DNA from: an uncultured bacterium
GTDB lineage: Bacteria; Cyanobacteriota; Vampirovibrionia; Gastranaerophilales; Gastranaerophilaceae
Length of the DNA stretch: 57,665 bases
Assembly (NCBI GenBank): GCA_902777855.1
Contig: CACYVN010000010.1
Coordinates: 1-57,665 of the forward strand
Direction: 5' to 3'
Below the pieces are notes generated by a model. That model saw only the letters and a program-made list of their open reading frames with translations, was not told the DNA's origin and searched no databases. How positions within the stretch are numbered: the first letter of the stretch is position 1; every line of letters starts with the position of its first letter. The position numbers and the translations under genes are program-made. Positions 29,754 through 35,987 of this stretch are shown in pieces.

Positions 29754-30485
29754 TTATCCCAATTCTTTTCTTAGTTTTATTACATTTTGGAAATGTTGAT
29801 TATTTTGAATTTCATAAATCTTTGCAAGTGCCCATTCTGTCGTGCTTAATGCATTGGATTCAGAAATTCTTCCTGATTCACTACATGATTTCAAATTTTT
29901 ATCTATTACATTATAAACCTTGAGCATAGTCTTATTATCAAGTCTGCGATGAGGAAACATAAAATAATTTGCAATTCCCAAGGAGTTATAATCTAAAGTA
30001 TGATAAAGTGTATCCAGTATATTTTCTGTATGGTGCAATTCATAATCAAGATTGATTATTACCTGTTTTTTTGAACCCATACGATAAACGTGTGTTCTAA
30101 TTGTCTTATAAACATCTTCGGTAATTCCCAAAGTTTTTAAATCTTCCATTGTCGCCAATTTATTAACAATATCTCCCATATATCCTTTAACTTCAGGTGG
30201 TTTTATACCAAGAGCATGAGCCGTAAGTTTCCAATCAACATATTTGATACCTATGTTTTTTAGTGGATTTTGAAGTTTTAATGGTCTGACATCTATCATT
30301 TTTTCATATTCAGTACCTGAAATCTTTTCCTCTGCCAAACTTTTGATTTTATCATGATTTTCCTGCAGAAACTTTATTTTTTCTGTTTGTGTTATTTTAT
30401 TAGAAGTCATAATTTCACGAACCTTATATAAATCAAGGTGTCCTACAGATTGAATTGAATTTATTCTGCCAACTGATATATTCAT
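29754..30485 (-). CDS. Unrecognised 243-residue protein (paralogue of 35256-35987)
   Basis: The two paralogues align over their full length; shared blocks include LDLYKVRE near residue 18, RPLKL near residue 67, a middle DYEL..HT/AKNIL block near residue 145, and RLDN.TML..YNV near residue 180. The C-terminal helix region (EWALAKIYEIQNNQ) is also common. The protein is helical and soluble, with no signal peptide and no known motif. TAGAAT lies six bases before the ATG and no binding site is seen. It sits inside the tRNA-linked repeat array. Confidence 0.75.
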   Translation of the reverse strand: MNISVGRINSIQSVGHLDLYKVREIMTSNKITQTEKIKFLQENHDKIKSLAEEKISGTEYEKMIDVRPLKLQNPLKNIGIKYVDWKLTAHALGIKPPEVKGYMGDIVNKLATMEDLKTLGITEDVYKTIRTHVYRMGSKKQVIINLDYELHHTENILDTLYHTLDYNSLGIANYFMFPHRRLDNKTMLKVYNVIDKNLKSCSESGRISESNALSTTEWALAKIYEIQNNQHFQNVIKLRKELG

Positions 30486-31699: not shown

Positions 31700-31847
31700 T
31701 ATTCTAATCCTGTTTATATATAGATATGTAAAACATGTAAAAAAAAAATTTGCCTGATTAATTTATGAAGATAAAAATGCCGGTCAGATTTTAAAAATAT
31801 AAATCAGATTTTGGTCTGATACATAAATTAGGGTTAAACATAAAATC

Positions 31848-32855
31848 TTAAATATTGTTTGTTAATATTTTATATATTTTATTTGTACATATTGCTAATA
31901 ATGTTGAACAAATAAATACTATTGGAACTATAATAATAAACCACTCTAATTTAGCAGTTGTGTTTGTTATGTAAGTATTAAAATAATGATAAACTACTTT
32001 GTCGCATAGATAAGATGACAGATAAATGCTTAATGATAAATTTGCTATATAACTAATGATATTCTTGATTTTTTCGGATAATTTATTAAGATTTATATTC
32101 AGTAATATAAGAAAAAATAGAGTAGAATTTATTGCATTTTCTATAACCCCCCAATTATCTAAACCATATAATTGAAAATTATGTCCTCGTGTTAAAAATA
32201 TGTTTATTAGAGAAAATATTATTATTGAGCATAAAAATGCGCTTAGCAGATATTTCTGATTAACTTTTACTTTATATTTATAAATATATGCACCTATCAT
32301 ATAATATGTAATTATCCACAATTTTGACCAATATTTAATGACAACAGGAGTGACCGTCAAAAAAGAAAATGTTATCAGTAGTGCTGTATCTTGTAATCTG
32401 TTATTAGAACACATTTTATTAATGAATGGAACTAATAAAAAAAGTCCTATGTACATTTCAACGTACCAAGCATATCCAATGATATGAAATTTATAAAATT
32501 CTTTTAAATAATAATCAGTATTTCCTGTATCAAATATTCCATATTGGCAAAGAAAAATTCTGGCAAATAATGTAATTATTGTAAGTATCAAATAGGGTAT
32601 AACAATTTTTTTTAATCCGTTGTAATACTTAATTGAAAATACTTTTTTATTCATTAAATAACCTGTTATTAAAATAAATAAAGGAACACACATCATAAAG
32701 AATGTTCTCATACCTACCATAATATACATTCTTGGGCAGGAAATATTAGTTTTATAAAAACCTGTATTTAAAAAGAAATGAATTGAAATTACAAAGAAAA
32801 CTGCGCATACCTTTATAAAATCAATATTAATATTTCTCTTTGTCAATTCTTTCAT
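31848..32855 (-). CDS. Membrane acyltransferase, family 3 type
   Basis: This 335-residue polytopic protein resembles OatA/WecH-type acyltransferases that add acetyl or other acyl groups to sugars at the envelope. The opening is typical: RNINIDFIKVCAVFFVISIH (the conserved D and H near residues 12 and 26). About ten membrane segments follow at regular spacing, such as TFFMMCVPLFILITGYLM and FLLVPFINKMC. It lies in the AT-rich accessory block, and its own composition is strikingly AT rich. Substrate unknown. Confidence 0.75.
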   Translation of the reverse strand: MKELTKRNINIDFIKVCAVFFVISIHFFLNTGFYKTNISCPRMYIMVGMRTFFMMCVPLFILITGYLMNKKVFSIKYYNGLKKIVIPYLILTIITLFARIFLCQYGIFDTGNTDYYLKEFYKFHIIGYAWYVEMYIGLFLLVPFINKMCSNNRLQDTALLITFSFLTVTPVVIKYWSKLWIITYYMIGAYIYKYKVKVNQKYLLSAFLCSIIIFSLINIFLTRGHNFQLYGLDNWGVIENAINSTLFFLILLNINLNKLSEKIKNIISYIANLSLSIYLSSYLCDKVVYHYFNTYITNTTAKLEWFIIIVPIVFICSTLLAICTNKIYKILTNNI

Positions 32856-32972
32856 GGTACCCCATTAAACTATATAGTATAGTTCTAAATATAAGAATAA
32901 AACTTTAATAATTTTGATGTTAACATCATAAATATTAATCAAAATATCATAGAAAAATTTAAATGTAAACAT

Positions 32973-32978
32973 TAAGAT
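32973..32978 (+). promoter_or_regulatory. TAAGAT box six bases before the XRE gene
   Basis: TAAGAT is followed by AATTTC and ATG 32985. No ribosome binding site is present. Confidence 0.5.
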
Positions 32979-32984
32979 AATTTC

Positions 32985-33191
32985 ATGGATTATAATTTGA
33001 AAAATTTTGGAAAAATAATAAGGATAGAACGTATTAAAAATGATTTATCGCAAGAAAAACTTGCAGAATTGTTAAATGTATCAATGCGGACAATTTCATT
33101 GATTGAATCAGGAAAACAACACCCGAAATTTTTCTTAGTTGTACAAATATCAAAAATTTTAAACTTTGATTTGAATATTTTAAAACAATAG
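32985..33191 (+). CDS. XRE-family helix-turn-helix regulator
   Basis: This 68-residue DNA-binding protein is almost all HTH: FGKIIRIERIKNDLSQEKLAELLNVSMRTISLIESGKQHP spans residues 8-48 (the domain from LSQEKLAELL to TISLIESG). It is the size of restriction-modification controller (C) proteins. It converges on the DNA methylase gene, with 10 bases between the stops, but is on the other strand. Whether it regulates that gene is inference. Confidence 0.85.
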   Translation: MDYNLKNFGKIIRIERIKNDLSQEKLAELLNVSMRTISLIESGKQHPKFFLVVQISKILNFDLNILKQ

Positions 33192-33201
33192 TAAATGTGC
33201 T

Positions 33202-35193
33202 CTATTGTTTGTCAGAAATTACATTATATTCCTGTTTTGTTAAATCGTATAACTTATAAATTTTTTCTTCTAAAATTTCAAGCAAATCATTTTGATTTTT
33301 GTCATTATTTATAATTGTGTCAACGATATTTATAATTTCGTTTTGGGTTTCATTGTTGCAAATCGGTATCGGGATATTTTCCAGGTGGGTGCGTAAAACT
33401 TTTACCGAATTATATTTTTTTTCAAATATAAATTGTGCAATTTTTGAATTTAAAATTGCCATTACATATTTTATATTCATATTATTGATTTTGGGTATAA
33501 GAATATTACAGCTGTTTAGTGACAGAGTTTTTTTATTATCATAGGCAAATATCAGTTTTTTACTGATAAATTTGTAAAATAATTTTTCTTTGGCTCTGTA
33601 AATTTCGGTCGGGGCAGTCTGTTGGAATTTTTCGGGGGTATATTCAATATAATTTGATGTCTTTTTAATCTTAAATTTTTCTATATCAGAGCCTTTAAGT
33701 ATAATTTCGTTAGAAACAGTTTTTTTATCTGTTATATATTTTTTGTTGTCGCCTGTTACTATTCCCAAAGCAAAAATGGCATTATTTTTCAGATAAACTT
33801 TTTGTCCTTCAAAGATTTTTTTGTAAAGTTCGTATTGTTTATCATTCATAGAAAAATCAAAAACTTCCGGGGTAATTTTCCGTTCTTTTTTTATAAAAAA
33901 TTCTTTATTCTTATTGACGATTTTCATTCCTGTGCAAATTGTATTTTTATTTGTATGTTCGATTTGCAAAATTATGCTTGGACATTGAACTTTATCAAAC
34001 ATGTTGCCTAAAAATTCAATGTATTTTATTGAATTTTTATTACAGATAATTTTTCTGATGGGTTTGTGGCTTTTTACCGTTAATATTGCTTCCGGAATTA
34101 CAAATAAAATATTGCCGTTTAATTTTAAACTTGAAATAGATTTTTCAACAAATATATCATAAGATTCAATATTTTTATTTTGTGCGGTCAGATATTTTTT
34201 TTGTAAAATTTTTATAGTGTCCGAATCAAAATTTGCTCCCCACGGAGGATTACCGATTATATAATCGAATTTTTTATCAATATTATTTAATAGAAAGTTT
34301 TTATCCGTAAAATTTTTATATAAGATTTTTGTATTTTTTAAATTAAATTTCAATGCCATATTGAGTCTGGTGATTTGAATTGCCGTATTATCAATATCGT
34401 TGCCGTAGATTTGTTCAATATTGAGATTATCCGGTAATTGCAGTAAGAAATTCCCGGCTCCGCAACAAGGGTCAAGAATGGTTATATCCGAAAATTTTTC
34501 AAAATTGATTTCATGTATGATTTTTTTTACGACTTTTGTCGGGGTATAATATGTCCCGCTTGCTTTTCTGTTATTCAAATCAGACAGTGAGATATATAAA
34601 AGGCCCAAAATATCCTGATTTTTTTCATATATATAATTTTTAAAAATATCGGAATAATTTTGTACAAATTCATTTGCATTTTTTCTATTATCTATTAAAT
34701 CATTTATTAATTCGGCATAAATTCCTAAATTTATTTTATTTTTTAAATATTCGCTCAGGTATTTATTAGGGAGTTTTTTATTTGGATTATTTTTTTGTAA
34801 AATAAGTTGTATTGCACAATCTGCAATTATGTATTTAATTTCTTCTGCTGATAAATTGTAGCTTTCATTTGTAATATAGTTTAACAATTCTTCAATAATT
34901 TTGGTGTTTTTTGAAGATTCCGAAATGTAATCTTTGTAGAAAAATGAACCGGATATATATTTTTTATTCCTGCGGGATTTTAAAAGGTTAGAGTTGTCTG
35001 AATTTAATTGTTTAATCAGTTTGTCTGTGTAGTCTTTTGTAAAAAGAATTTGTGAGTTTTCAATGAAACTTGGTTGTATTTTATTCAATTTTATCCAGTT
35101 TTTAACAGTGGTTCGGGATACAGAAAGCTTTTCACTCAAATCTTTAATTGAGATATAATTTTTTGTCGGTTTTTTATCAGTAAAAATAGCCAT
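33202..35193 (-). CDS. N6-adenine DNA methyltransferase (TaqI/Eco57I type) with N-terminal HTH
   Basis: This 663-residue protein has three parts. Residues 14-60 are an excisionase-like helix-turn-helix (SIKDLSEKLSVSRTTVKNW). Residues ~205-440 are an N6-adenine methylase core: TYYTPTKVVKKI, SAM motif LDPCCGAGNFLLQLP near residue 243, and the catalytic motif IIGNPPWGANFDSDT near residue 310. The C-terminal ~200 residues resemble the TaqI specificity domain, with INNMNIKYVMAILNSK and HLENIPIP. No nuclease motif is obvious, and no restriction gene adjoins. So it may be an orphan methylase or a modification subunit. It is very AT rich compared with its neighbours. AGAGGG stands 9-14 bases before the ATG. 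Confidence 0.85.
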   Translation of the reverse strand: MAIFTDKKPTKNYISIKDLSEKLSVSRTTVKNWIKLNKIQPSFIENSQILFTKDYTDKLIKQLNSDNSNLLKSRRNKKYISGSFFYKDYISESSKNTKIIEELLNYITNESYNLSAEEIKYIIADCAIQLILQKNNPNKKLPNKYLSEYLKNKINLGIYAELINDLIDNRKNANEFVQNYSDIFKNYIYEKNQDILGLLYISLSDLNNRKASGTYYTPTKVVKKIIHEINFEKFSDITILDPCCGAGNFLLQLPDNLNIEQIYGNDIDNTAIQITRLNMALKFNLKNTKILYKNFTDKNFLLNNIDKKFDYIIGNPPWGANFDSDTIKILQKKYLTAQNKNIESYDIFVEKSISSLKLNGNILFVIPEAILTVKSHKPIRKIICNKNSIKYIEFLGNMFDKVQCPSIILQIEHTNKNTICTGMKIVNKNKEFFIKKERKITPEVFDFSMNDKQYELYKKIFEGQKVYLKNNAIFALGIVTGDNKKYITDKKTVSNEIILKGSDIEKFKIKKTSNYIEYTPEKFQQTAPTEIYRAKEKLFYKFISKKLIFAYDNKKTLSLNSCNILIPKINNMNIKYVMAILNSKIAQFIFEKKYNSVKVLRTHLENIPIPICNNETQNEIINIVDTIINNDKNQNDLLEILEEKIYKLYDLTKQEYNVISDKQ

Positions 35194-35255
35194 ATATCCC
35201 TCTTATAAAATTATACTATAAGTGTAGAGATTGTGACAATTGTGATAATTACAAA

Positions 35256-35987
35256 TTACTCTAACTTATTTCTTAATTTTATGGCATTTTTAAGCTGTTG
35301 ATTATTCTGGATTTTATAAATCCGCGCAAGTGCCCACTCTGCTGTTTCCTGTGCCTGAACATCTGAAATTTTTCCTGATGCACGACCGGCTTTTAAATTT
35401 TTATCAACAACATTATAAATCCCAAGCATTGTACCATTATCAAGTCTGTGAATAGGGCGTATAAAATAATCTGCAACTCCGCCCGAATTGTATTCTAATG
35501 TGTGGTATAAAACATGCAAAATATTTTTTGCGTGAGAAAGTTCATAGTCAAGAAAATTTATAACTTGTTCTTTTGTTCCGTGGCGAAATACGTAAGTTTT
35601 TATTTCCTCGTACTTATCTTTTGTCATCCCCATAGAATTTAAGTCCTGCATTGAACGAACTTGCAGCGTAACGTTTTTTATGTACCCGTCAACGTTAGTT
35701 GGCGGAATTTCAAGTGCCATAGCAAGAAGTTTTTTATCCCCTGCTTTGGTGTACGAATTTTTAAGCGGGCGGAAAAGTTTTAGCGGTCGGTTTTCCATAA
35801 TTGTTTTAAAATCTGAACCTGAAATTTTTTCATCAACAAGATGTTTAATTTCAGAATGATTCTTTTTCAAAAACTGAACTTTTTGTTCTGTTGTTATTTT
35901 ACTTGAAACCATAACCTCACGAACCTTGTATAAATCAAGATTCCCGACAGGATTAATATTATCTATTTTATCAACTCTTATACCCAT
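35256..35987 (-). CDS. Unrecognised 243-residue protein (paralogue of 29754-30485)
   Basis: Same length as its paralogue and similar throughout, though clearly diverged. Shared blocks include NLDLYKVREVM at residue 16, NRPLKL at 66, FLDYELSHAKNIL near 143, RLDNGTMLGIYNVVDKNLKAG near 180, and EWALARIYKIQNNQQ near the C-terminus. No known domain. TAGAAT then GCATCT precedes the ATG. The two copies bracket the acyltransferase, XRE and methylase genes. Confidence 0.75.
   Translation of the reverse strand: MGIRVDKIDNINPVGNLDLYKVREVMVSSKITTEQKVQFLKKNHSEIKHLVDEKISGSDFKTIMENRPLKLFRPLKNSYTKAGDKKLLAMALEIPPTNVDGYIKNVTLQVRSMQDLNSMGMTKDKYEEIKTYVFRHGTKEQVINFLDYELSHAKNILHVLYHTLEYNSGGVADYFIRPIHRLDNGTMLGIYNVVDKNLKAGRASGKISDVQAQETAEWALARIYKIQNNQQLKNAIKLRNKLE

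Follow-up and report, generated by a model that had tools for sequence, protein, structure and literature searches.

The methylase locus and the architecture of the enzyme

The window analyzed here, that is, the whole stretch of 57,665 nucleotides from an uncultured member of the Gastranaerophilaceae, contains a gene encoding an N6-adenine DNA methyltransferase (methylase) that converges on a small gene encoding an XRE regulator. According to the ORF calls, the stop codons of these genes are 10 bp apart, in agreement with the original prediction, made from the nucleotide letters alone, of a small tail-to-tail XRE gene ten bases from the methylase stop. The genome that contains the window comprises 1.94 Mb on 31 contigs with a completeness of 99.5%. 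The relevant features are the following.

31777..35232, no strand: segment of ~3.4 kb containing the acyltransferase, XRE and methylase genes, delimited by blastn of the window against relatives; ends approximate
31848-32855: acyltransferase gene, part of the ~3.4 kb segment that also holds the XRE and methylase genes
32915..32928, no strand: palindrome of 14 bp without mismatches, TGATGTTAACATCA, putative operator for the XRE gene, 70 bp before its start
32985..33191, + strand: XRE regulator of 68 amino acids, HTH_3 match 8.3e-13 (Pfam), convergent with the methylase
33202..35193, - strand: N6-adenine DNA methyltransferase of 663 amino acids (ORF call), orphan type II modification enzyme by its match to PADLOC PDLC03348
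33364..33726, - strand: TaqI-like target-recognition domain (TRD), residues 490-610, with TaqI_C at 498-609; the best-conserved part of the family
33994..34623, - strand: SAM-binding and catalytic core, residues 191-400, from Pfam matches, alignment and domain table
34576..34938, - strand: helical domain, residues 86-206, from the secondary structure of the model; no nuclease fold seen
35002..35166, - strand: winged helix-turn-helix (HTH), residues 10-64, from weak HTH_11 and HTH_17 matches and the structure model
35210..35239, - strand: sigma-70-like promoter match of the methylase gene, TTGTCA-18-TATAAT, 11 of 12 consensus positions
35230-35249: near-palindrome of 20 bp that covers the -35 element of the methylase promoter match

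Two paralogous proteins of 243 amino acids, neither with a significant Pfam match, are encoded on either side of the acyltransferase, XRE and methylase genes (window 29754-30485 and 35256-35987). Genome G004 contains matches to both of these flanking paralogues and lacks the 3.4 kb segment.

The methylase has strong Pfam matches to N6_Mtase (1.8e-27), Eco57I (1e-19) and TaqI_C (1.4e-28). Motif I is followed by motif IV and then by the TRD, which is the gamma-class order found in type II N6-adenine modification enzymes. In an alignment of 30 sequences D241, C244, G245, G247, F249 and N315-W318 are invariant. The PADLOC model MTase_II (PDLC03348) matches residues 11-662 at 4.2e-127. Because this match spans the HTH, the fusion of an HTH to the methyltransferase is a trait of the family and not a peculiarity of the window. 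The HTH itself is matched below the curated Pfam cut-offs by HTH_11 (4.8e-5) and HTH_17 (8.5e-5), and excisionase-type matches were obtained with TIGR01764 "excise" (0.078) and an excisionase PHROG (6.9e-4). A structure model of the methylase, built from 4 input sequences, had a mean pLDDT of 67.7, and the other four models averaged 43-48. In this model, residues 13-64 form the order strand-helix-helix-strand-strand-helix of a winged HTH, with helices at 16-23, 27-36 and 53-64 and strands at 43-45 and 48-52.

Residues 86-206 are predicted to be entirely helical with zero strands (block-mean pLDDT 75-93 over residues 91-200). Given that the PD-(D/E)XK nuclease fold requires strands, no such nuclease is apparent in this part of the protein. 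The linker at residues 65-85 is poorly modeled, as are residues 464-571 of the recognition part (pLDDT <50). The architecture is thus as originally proposed, with an excisionase-like HTH in front of a TaqI/Eco57I-type core and no visible nuclease. The structural check suggested at the time for a nuclease hidden in residues 60-205 revealed none in the model, in which residues 65-85 are of low confidence. A profile of 30 methylase relatives matches solved chains of HsdM-type and related proteins from profile positions 107-163 onward, for example, 2f8l (107-395) and 2okc (122-375).

We rejected an assignment as a type IIG enzyme based on the helical nature of residues 86-206 and on the PADLOC comparison, in which MTase_II scored best and the best IIG model reached 3.1e-17 with its best stretch at residues 306-512. 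Membership in the methylation-associated defense system MADS was also rejected, with NCBIfam MAD2 scoring 46.3 bits compared to a cut-off of 720. The HTH has a weak match to mad1 (7.1e-6), there was no match to mad genes among the 4 neighboring proteins scanned, and a search of the literature on MADS yielded no relevant paper.

The XRE neighbor and the methylase promoter

The XRE gene has the size and the fold of a C protein, and only a few base pairs separate its stop codon from that of the methylase gene. The two genes could accordingly be read as a functional pair, in which the XRE protein would serve as the C protein and the restriction-modification system would have lost its nuclease, and there are weak matches to PADLOC Control_protein models (best 2e-5). 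Another HTH model, PDLC02926, matches the XRE protein better, however, at 1.9e-12. Moreover, when we scanned 1.5 kb around the methylase genes with a profile of 29 XRE proteins, an XRE gene adjoined the methylase in only 1 of 48 loci, which is the window itself, and a weak XRE-family ORF match was located 904 bp from the methylase in one further genome, G030; 7 of the 48 loci have less than 1 kb of sequence on one side. XRE-like genes as such are abundant: at E<=1e-5 the genus has matches in 39 of its 46 genomes, with up to 46 in a single genome.

The palindrome upstream of the XRE gene also argues against this pairing. Variants with 3 mismatches each are positioned 70-73 bp from the start codon in three of four close XRE relatives from other genomes, and in the fourth (L061) a match with 3 mismatches lies at 100 bp. 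Such a match anywhere upstream had P values of 0.016-0.038 in shuffled sequences, and a match at 67-73 bp had P values of 0.0005-0.002 for those three relatives, although the palindrome is not rare in itself (43 of 100 shuffled versions of the window contain it with <=2 mismatches). Upstream of the methylase, the best match has 6 mismatches of 14. A role of the XRE protein as a C protein or other partner of the methylase, as contemplated earlier, is therefore very improbable: the gene pair is not conserved, and the palindrome recurs at XRE relatives but is absent from the methylase promoter. The XRE gene is probably an unrelated passenger with its own predicted operator.

The original prediction also considered that the HTH might allow the methylase to regulate its own gene. 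C5 enzymes of the M.SsoII type are known to combine a fused HTH with regulation of their own genes, according to the available part of PMC3978073. In a corresponding scenario, the HTH of the window enzyme would repress its own promoter at the near-palindrome over the -35 element. The presence of a winged HTH is consistent with this, and the strong promoter match overlapped by the 20-bp near-palindrome is the best case for self-repression. Promoter-like sites numbered 25 in the region compared to 19.6 in shuffles, and an idealized version of the near-palindrome was matched at <=3 mismatches in 4 of 100 shuffles. By contrast, upstream of 46 other family members, comprising both long and short forms (see below), the near-palindrome did not occur beyond chance, and only one member (G067) had P <0.05.

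The set used for the search for shared upstream motifs comprised 16 of the 18 short forms and 22 of the 29 long forms of the two genera together with one long form from Lachnospiraceae. Among these 23 long forms, no motif scored above shuffled controls. Upstream sequence is common to short forms at k 12, in 14 of the 15 other rows compared to at most 10 in shuffles, as is expected because nine of these rows are located at one shared site. Further counterevidence is that several members of the family begin 2-50 bp behind a co-directional gene, and that the same role is filled by a short form that lacks the first helix of the HTH. As a conserved property, self-regulation through the HTH is thus not upheld, with no motif shared by the long forms and the first part of the HTH missing from the short form, and we consider self-regulation in the manner of M.SsoII unlikely at this locus. 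M.SsoII and the window enzyme are alike in the position of an HTH N-terminal to the methyltransferase. They differ in that M.SsoII, as described in the same source, is a C5-cytosine enzyme with a nuclease and a defined regulatory site, whereas the window enzyme is of the N6-adenine type and has no conserved operator. The HTH is most likely an additional DNA-contacting element and at most a local autorepressor.

Distribution, nuclease partners and changing gene position

Homologs of the methylase are present in 47 of 54 genomes of two genera, with one copy per genome. In the genus of the window, 40 of the 46 genomes have a match at E<=1e-20, as do 30 of the 34 high-quality genomes among them; in the second genus, g37, 7 of 8 genomes have one. 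Genomes without the gene include G013, G022, G024 and G062. A sample of the order, 383 genomes, gave 44 matches at E<=1e-40, which are confined to 3 of 52 genera. The family is therefore near-universal in this lineage and rare outside of it, and the nuclease described below accompanies it in 3 of the 54 genomes. The methylase is not essential, given that 4 of the 34 high-quality genomes of the genus are without it. Apparent duplicates were resolved as pieces of one gene (G017) or as gene ends on two contigs (G026 and G028, which were excluded from both methylase trees and from the domain table). Two equal matches on two contigs of G002, an assembly with 8% contamination, were counted as one, and L022, which is the same gene as the G066 methylase, was counted once. 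A match at 2.5e-92 in a further genus (G388, genus g53) was left out of the fetched sequences.

There are two forms of the methylase, which constitute two fully supported clades on the tree. The long form has about 600-700 amino acids and an HTH. The short form has 548-593 amino acids and begins, as judged by eye, at the recognition helix of the HTH, so that it retains half of an HTH. In the genus of the window, 25 genomes contain the long form, 15 the short form, 6 neither and 0 both; pooled with g37, the numbers are 29 long, 18 short and 7 none. The chance of zero overlap between the two forms is 1e-7, a figure that ignores kinship among the genomes. The mfd tree requires the long and the short form to have replaced each other at least 8 times.

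The methylase genes have low dN/dS ratios, 0.12-0.22 in 12 pairs, none of which has an intact nuclease; six of these pairs have dS >1, which renders the ratios rough, and some pairs share a genome, so that not all are independent. We compared domain identities among 39 sequences, namely 23 long forms of the genus, 1 from Lachnospiraceae and 15 short forms. Mean identity in the TRD was 64.5% among long forms, 65.9% among short forms and 47.7% between long and short forms. The catalytic core gave corresponding values of 52.4%, 60.3% and 36.0%, and the helical domain gave 28.4%, 40.7% and 14.5%. Recognition domains typically vary between enzymes of different specificity. The TRD is nevertheless the best-conserved domain here, which makes it likely that the methylases of this family share one target motif. 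On the strength of the 47.7% TRD identity between them, the long and the short forms would have the same specificity.

Nuclease genes were sought with a single restriction endonuclease (REase) profile, PADLOC REase_II PDLC03414. It identified a nuclease gene in 3 of 54 genomes: 2 of 46 come from the genus of the window, and 1 of 8 from g37, which belongs to the same family. The nucleases of G036 (L030; 253 amino acids, 1.3e-33) and G011 (L031; 185 amino acids, 1.6e-11) and that of G355 in g37 (187 amino acids, beside a homologous methylase) are all encoded tail-to-tail at the 3' end of the methylase gene, with overlaps of 4 bp, 4 bp and 9 bp, respectively. In G035, whose methylase is 61% identical to that of the window, an ORF of 72 amino acids beside the methylase matches the C terminus of the G011 nuclease over 49 residues at 69% and constitutes a nuclease remnant. 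It was the only remnant detected by tblastn of the three nucleases against the 3' flanks of the methylase genes. The neighborhood of G036 is present without the nuclease in G018 and G067, and that of G011 in G066; in these three genomes 1 to 8 bp separate the methylase from the next gene. The window XRE gene occupies the slot that is held by the convergent nuclease in the three relatives. Tight convergence is also observed with unrelated genes, and the location of the XRE gene in this slot therefore implies no partnership.

The genome of the window had 0 matches to PDLC03414 up to E 10, and the search for a nuclease remnant in the window gave only a 15-residue match elsewhere (E 5.2). By this profile, we therefore rejected a complete type II restriction-modification system. 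The earlier suggestion that the methylase could be the modification part of a defense locus with missing parts is borne out by the finding of a separate, convergent REase gene in relatives. With respect to the type II families PDLC03348 and PDLC03414, the methylase is a full-length match and G036 and G011 hold methylase and nuclease side by side, whereas the window genome and 51 of the 54 genomes are without a PDLC03414 match. The nuclease-bearing rows are scattered on the methylase tree, requiring 3 changes, and across ~120 residues the REase of G036 shares no more than 26-30% identity with the other two. For these reasons, gain of the nuclease is possible beside its loss.

The position of the methylase gene changes between genomes. 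Neighborhoods of 48 rows, defined by up to two neighbors of >=75 amino acids per side, fell into 17 groups, of which the Lachnospiraceae row is one and about 16 are within the two genera; rows near contig ends may have been split wrongly, and one group links G011, G035, G066 and G355 partly via the nuclease itself. By mfd, the nearest genome to that of the window is G002 (93-95%), followed by G016, G004 and G063. The methylase genes of these relatives occupy a different position, designated site B, and their products are only 50-52% identical to the window enzyme. The window genome has an uninterrupted site B with no methylase gene, and a search there for a methylase remnant recovered only AT-rich intergenic similarity. 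Conversely, in G004, G016 and G012 the genes that flank the window segment adjoin one another and the 3.4 kb segment is absent (blastn; regions L110, L111 and L113), with the junction alignment made for L110 at the edge of the segment. No match to the segment was found in the 8 regions fetched, of which those of G031, G063 and G034 offer too little shared sequence for a conclusion, and no convincing target-site repeats were found at the segment. Given that site B is empty in the window genome and the window site is empty in the relatives, the window lineage has probably swapped its own methylase for another one of the same family. Inside individual clades (sites A, B and C and short-form pairs), members have the site in common and the gene tree is largely congruent with the mfd tree, indicating that the methylase is then inherited vertically.

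A proposed retained adenine mark and the alternatives

Taken together, these results lead us to propose, with reasonable confidence, that the window encodes a member of a clade-wide family of orphan N6-adenine methylases of the type II modification kind, and that the mark would be kept while the gene for its writer is repeatedly displaced. The enzyme would place its mark on the adenine of a single short motif throughout the chromosome, and all enzymes of the family would methylate the same motif. The nuclease would have been lost in most lineages, with gain in three as the less likely course. What is retained may be the mark itself, for a role in gene regulation, in the timing of replication or repair, or in protection from nucleases that have the same specificity. 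If a newly arrived gene encodes the same specificity, either copy could be lost, which would leave one writer per genome at changing sites. Low dN/dS and a single copy in most genomes, despite changes of place and form, suggest that the mark itself would be useful to the cell. An epigenetic role, which had been raised earlier for the HTH-fused enzyme, is plausible for a lineage-wide methylase that is mostly free of a nuclease.

More tentatively, it is possible that a single adenine mark is the entity conserved in the two genera, and that interchangeable writers of one specificity rotate, one per genome. As part of this tentative reading, the long HTH form with or without a nuclease and the short form with half an HTH would displace each other at many chromosomal sites. 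If true, a restriction-modification lineage would have turned into a standing, replaceable epigenetic function.

Alternatively, the methylase could be a decaying remnant of a selfish restriction-modification system that lingers by chance or after recent horizontal gain and has no cellular role. The segment of 3.4 kb that harbors the window gene is missing at this site in close relatives, and an identity of only 52% to the G002 methylase, at an mfd of 93-95%, suggests that it was probably brought from elsewhere. However, decay is at odds with the retention of one copy by 40 of the 46 genomes in the genus and by 7 of the 8 in g37, the low dN/dS among nuclease-free pairs, the conserved catalytic motifs and the inheritance at shared sites in clades A, B, C and others, and we regard it as quite improbable. 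A less remote alternative is that the methylase shields the chromosome from same-specificity nucleases carried by plasmids, phages or neighboring cells, in the sense of vaccination or anti-restriction. Nuclease-bearing forms do occur within the same genera, and the many sites and two forms would be the expected outcome of repeated gain under a pressure of this kind. On the other hand, a nuclease in only 3 of 54 genomes makes exposure in these genera look rare; a scan of viral_contigs matched 131 stretches, none of which codes for a methylase relative, and phage (55) and plasmid (597) records contained partial matches, of which not one extended over 80% of the query. We consider this protective role rather unlikely; it overlaps with the proposal of a retained mark and does not exclude it.

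To our knowledge, lineage-wide orphan methylases with a known role, such as Dam, CcrM and CamA, are few. Among known systems, CamA (PDB 7lni), the orphan N6-adenine methyltransferase of Clostridioides difficile, appears to be the nearest functional parallel. CamA is of the gamma type and lineage-wide, according to the available part of PMC8187626. It is the best match among solved structures, both with the profile of the relatives (9.1e-26) and by Foldseek, where it ranked first (E about 1e-11). The top Foldseek rows for CamA structures had TM-scores of 0.42-0.46 by target and an rmsd >10 A, so that the likeness lies in the core and the domain order and is not a close overlay. CamA and the window methylase have in common a gamma-type core, the orphan state and a near-universal presence in one lineage with rarity outside of it. 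The recognition domain of CamA fails to align with that of the family (domain score -3.9 bits in the profile alignment), and we therefore rejected the window methylase as a CamA orthologue. In addition, the available part of PMC8187626 makes no mention of an HTH in CamA, whereas the window methylase has a winged HTH, and CamA marks one species, whereas the family described here is present in two genera of gut bacteria with a changing gene position.

Conserved orphan methylases beside patchy restriction systems are also described for Halobacteria in the available part of PMC6471742. That is another lineage, and displacement of two forms at many sites is unmentioned in this part of the source. 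In the open-licence literature, the scope of our search exclusive of subscription papers and preprints, no report on DNA methylation in Gastranaerophilales/Melainabacteria was found. For the repeated exchange of equivalent writers we found no description in a search that centered on this lineage and was limited elsewhere.

The family offers many natural comparisons within one genus, including the same site with and without a nuclease, long and short forms, and a few genomes without any methylase. These comparisons allow a direct test, in gut samples and with uncultured hosts, of how a restriction-modification gene turns into an epigenetic writer of the cell.

Several minor observations concern more distant relatives and neighboring genes. 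On a contig titled Lachnospiraceae (L023:3699-5729), a methylase is 47% identical to that of the window, with 66% identity in the TRD and no adjacent nuclease. It lies between genes that by eye are response-regulator-like and YebC-like, and transfer between phyla is possible. A relative on an Acetobacter pasteurianus plasmid (L178:5485-7422) is 37% identical over residues 194-610; the 13 kb inspected around it contain no gene annotated for restriction, though many neighbors are hypothetical. The window genome also contains a dispersed repeat of ~55-110 bp (within L035:9312-9421) at 10 places on 8 contigs. Behind the orphan methylase of G031 (L024:1976-6002) are an 89-amino acid gene with a weak AbiEi match (0.0064), a gene for a KAP-family NTPase of 958 amino acids with a PifA match (1.6e-39), and a 248-amino acid gene with a sub-threshold Abi_2 match, which together look like a defense island.
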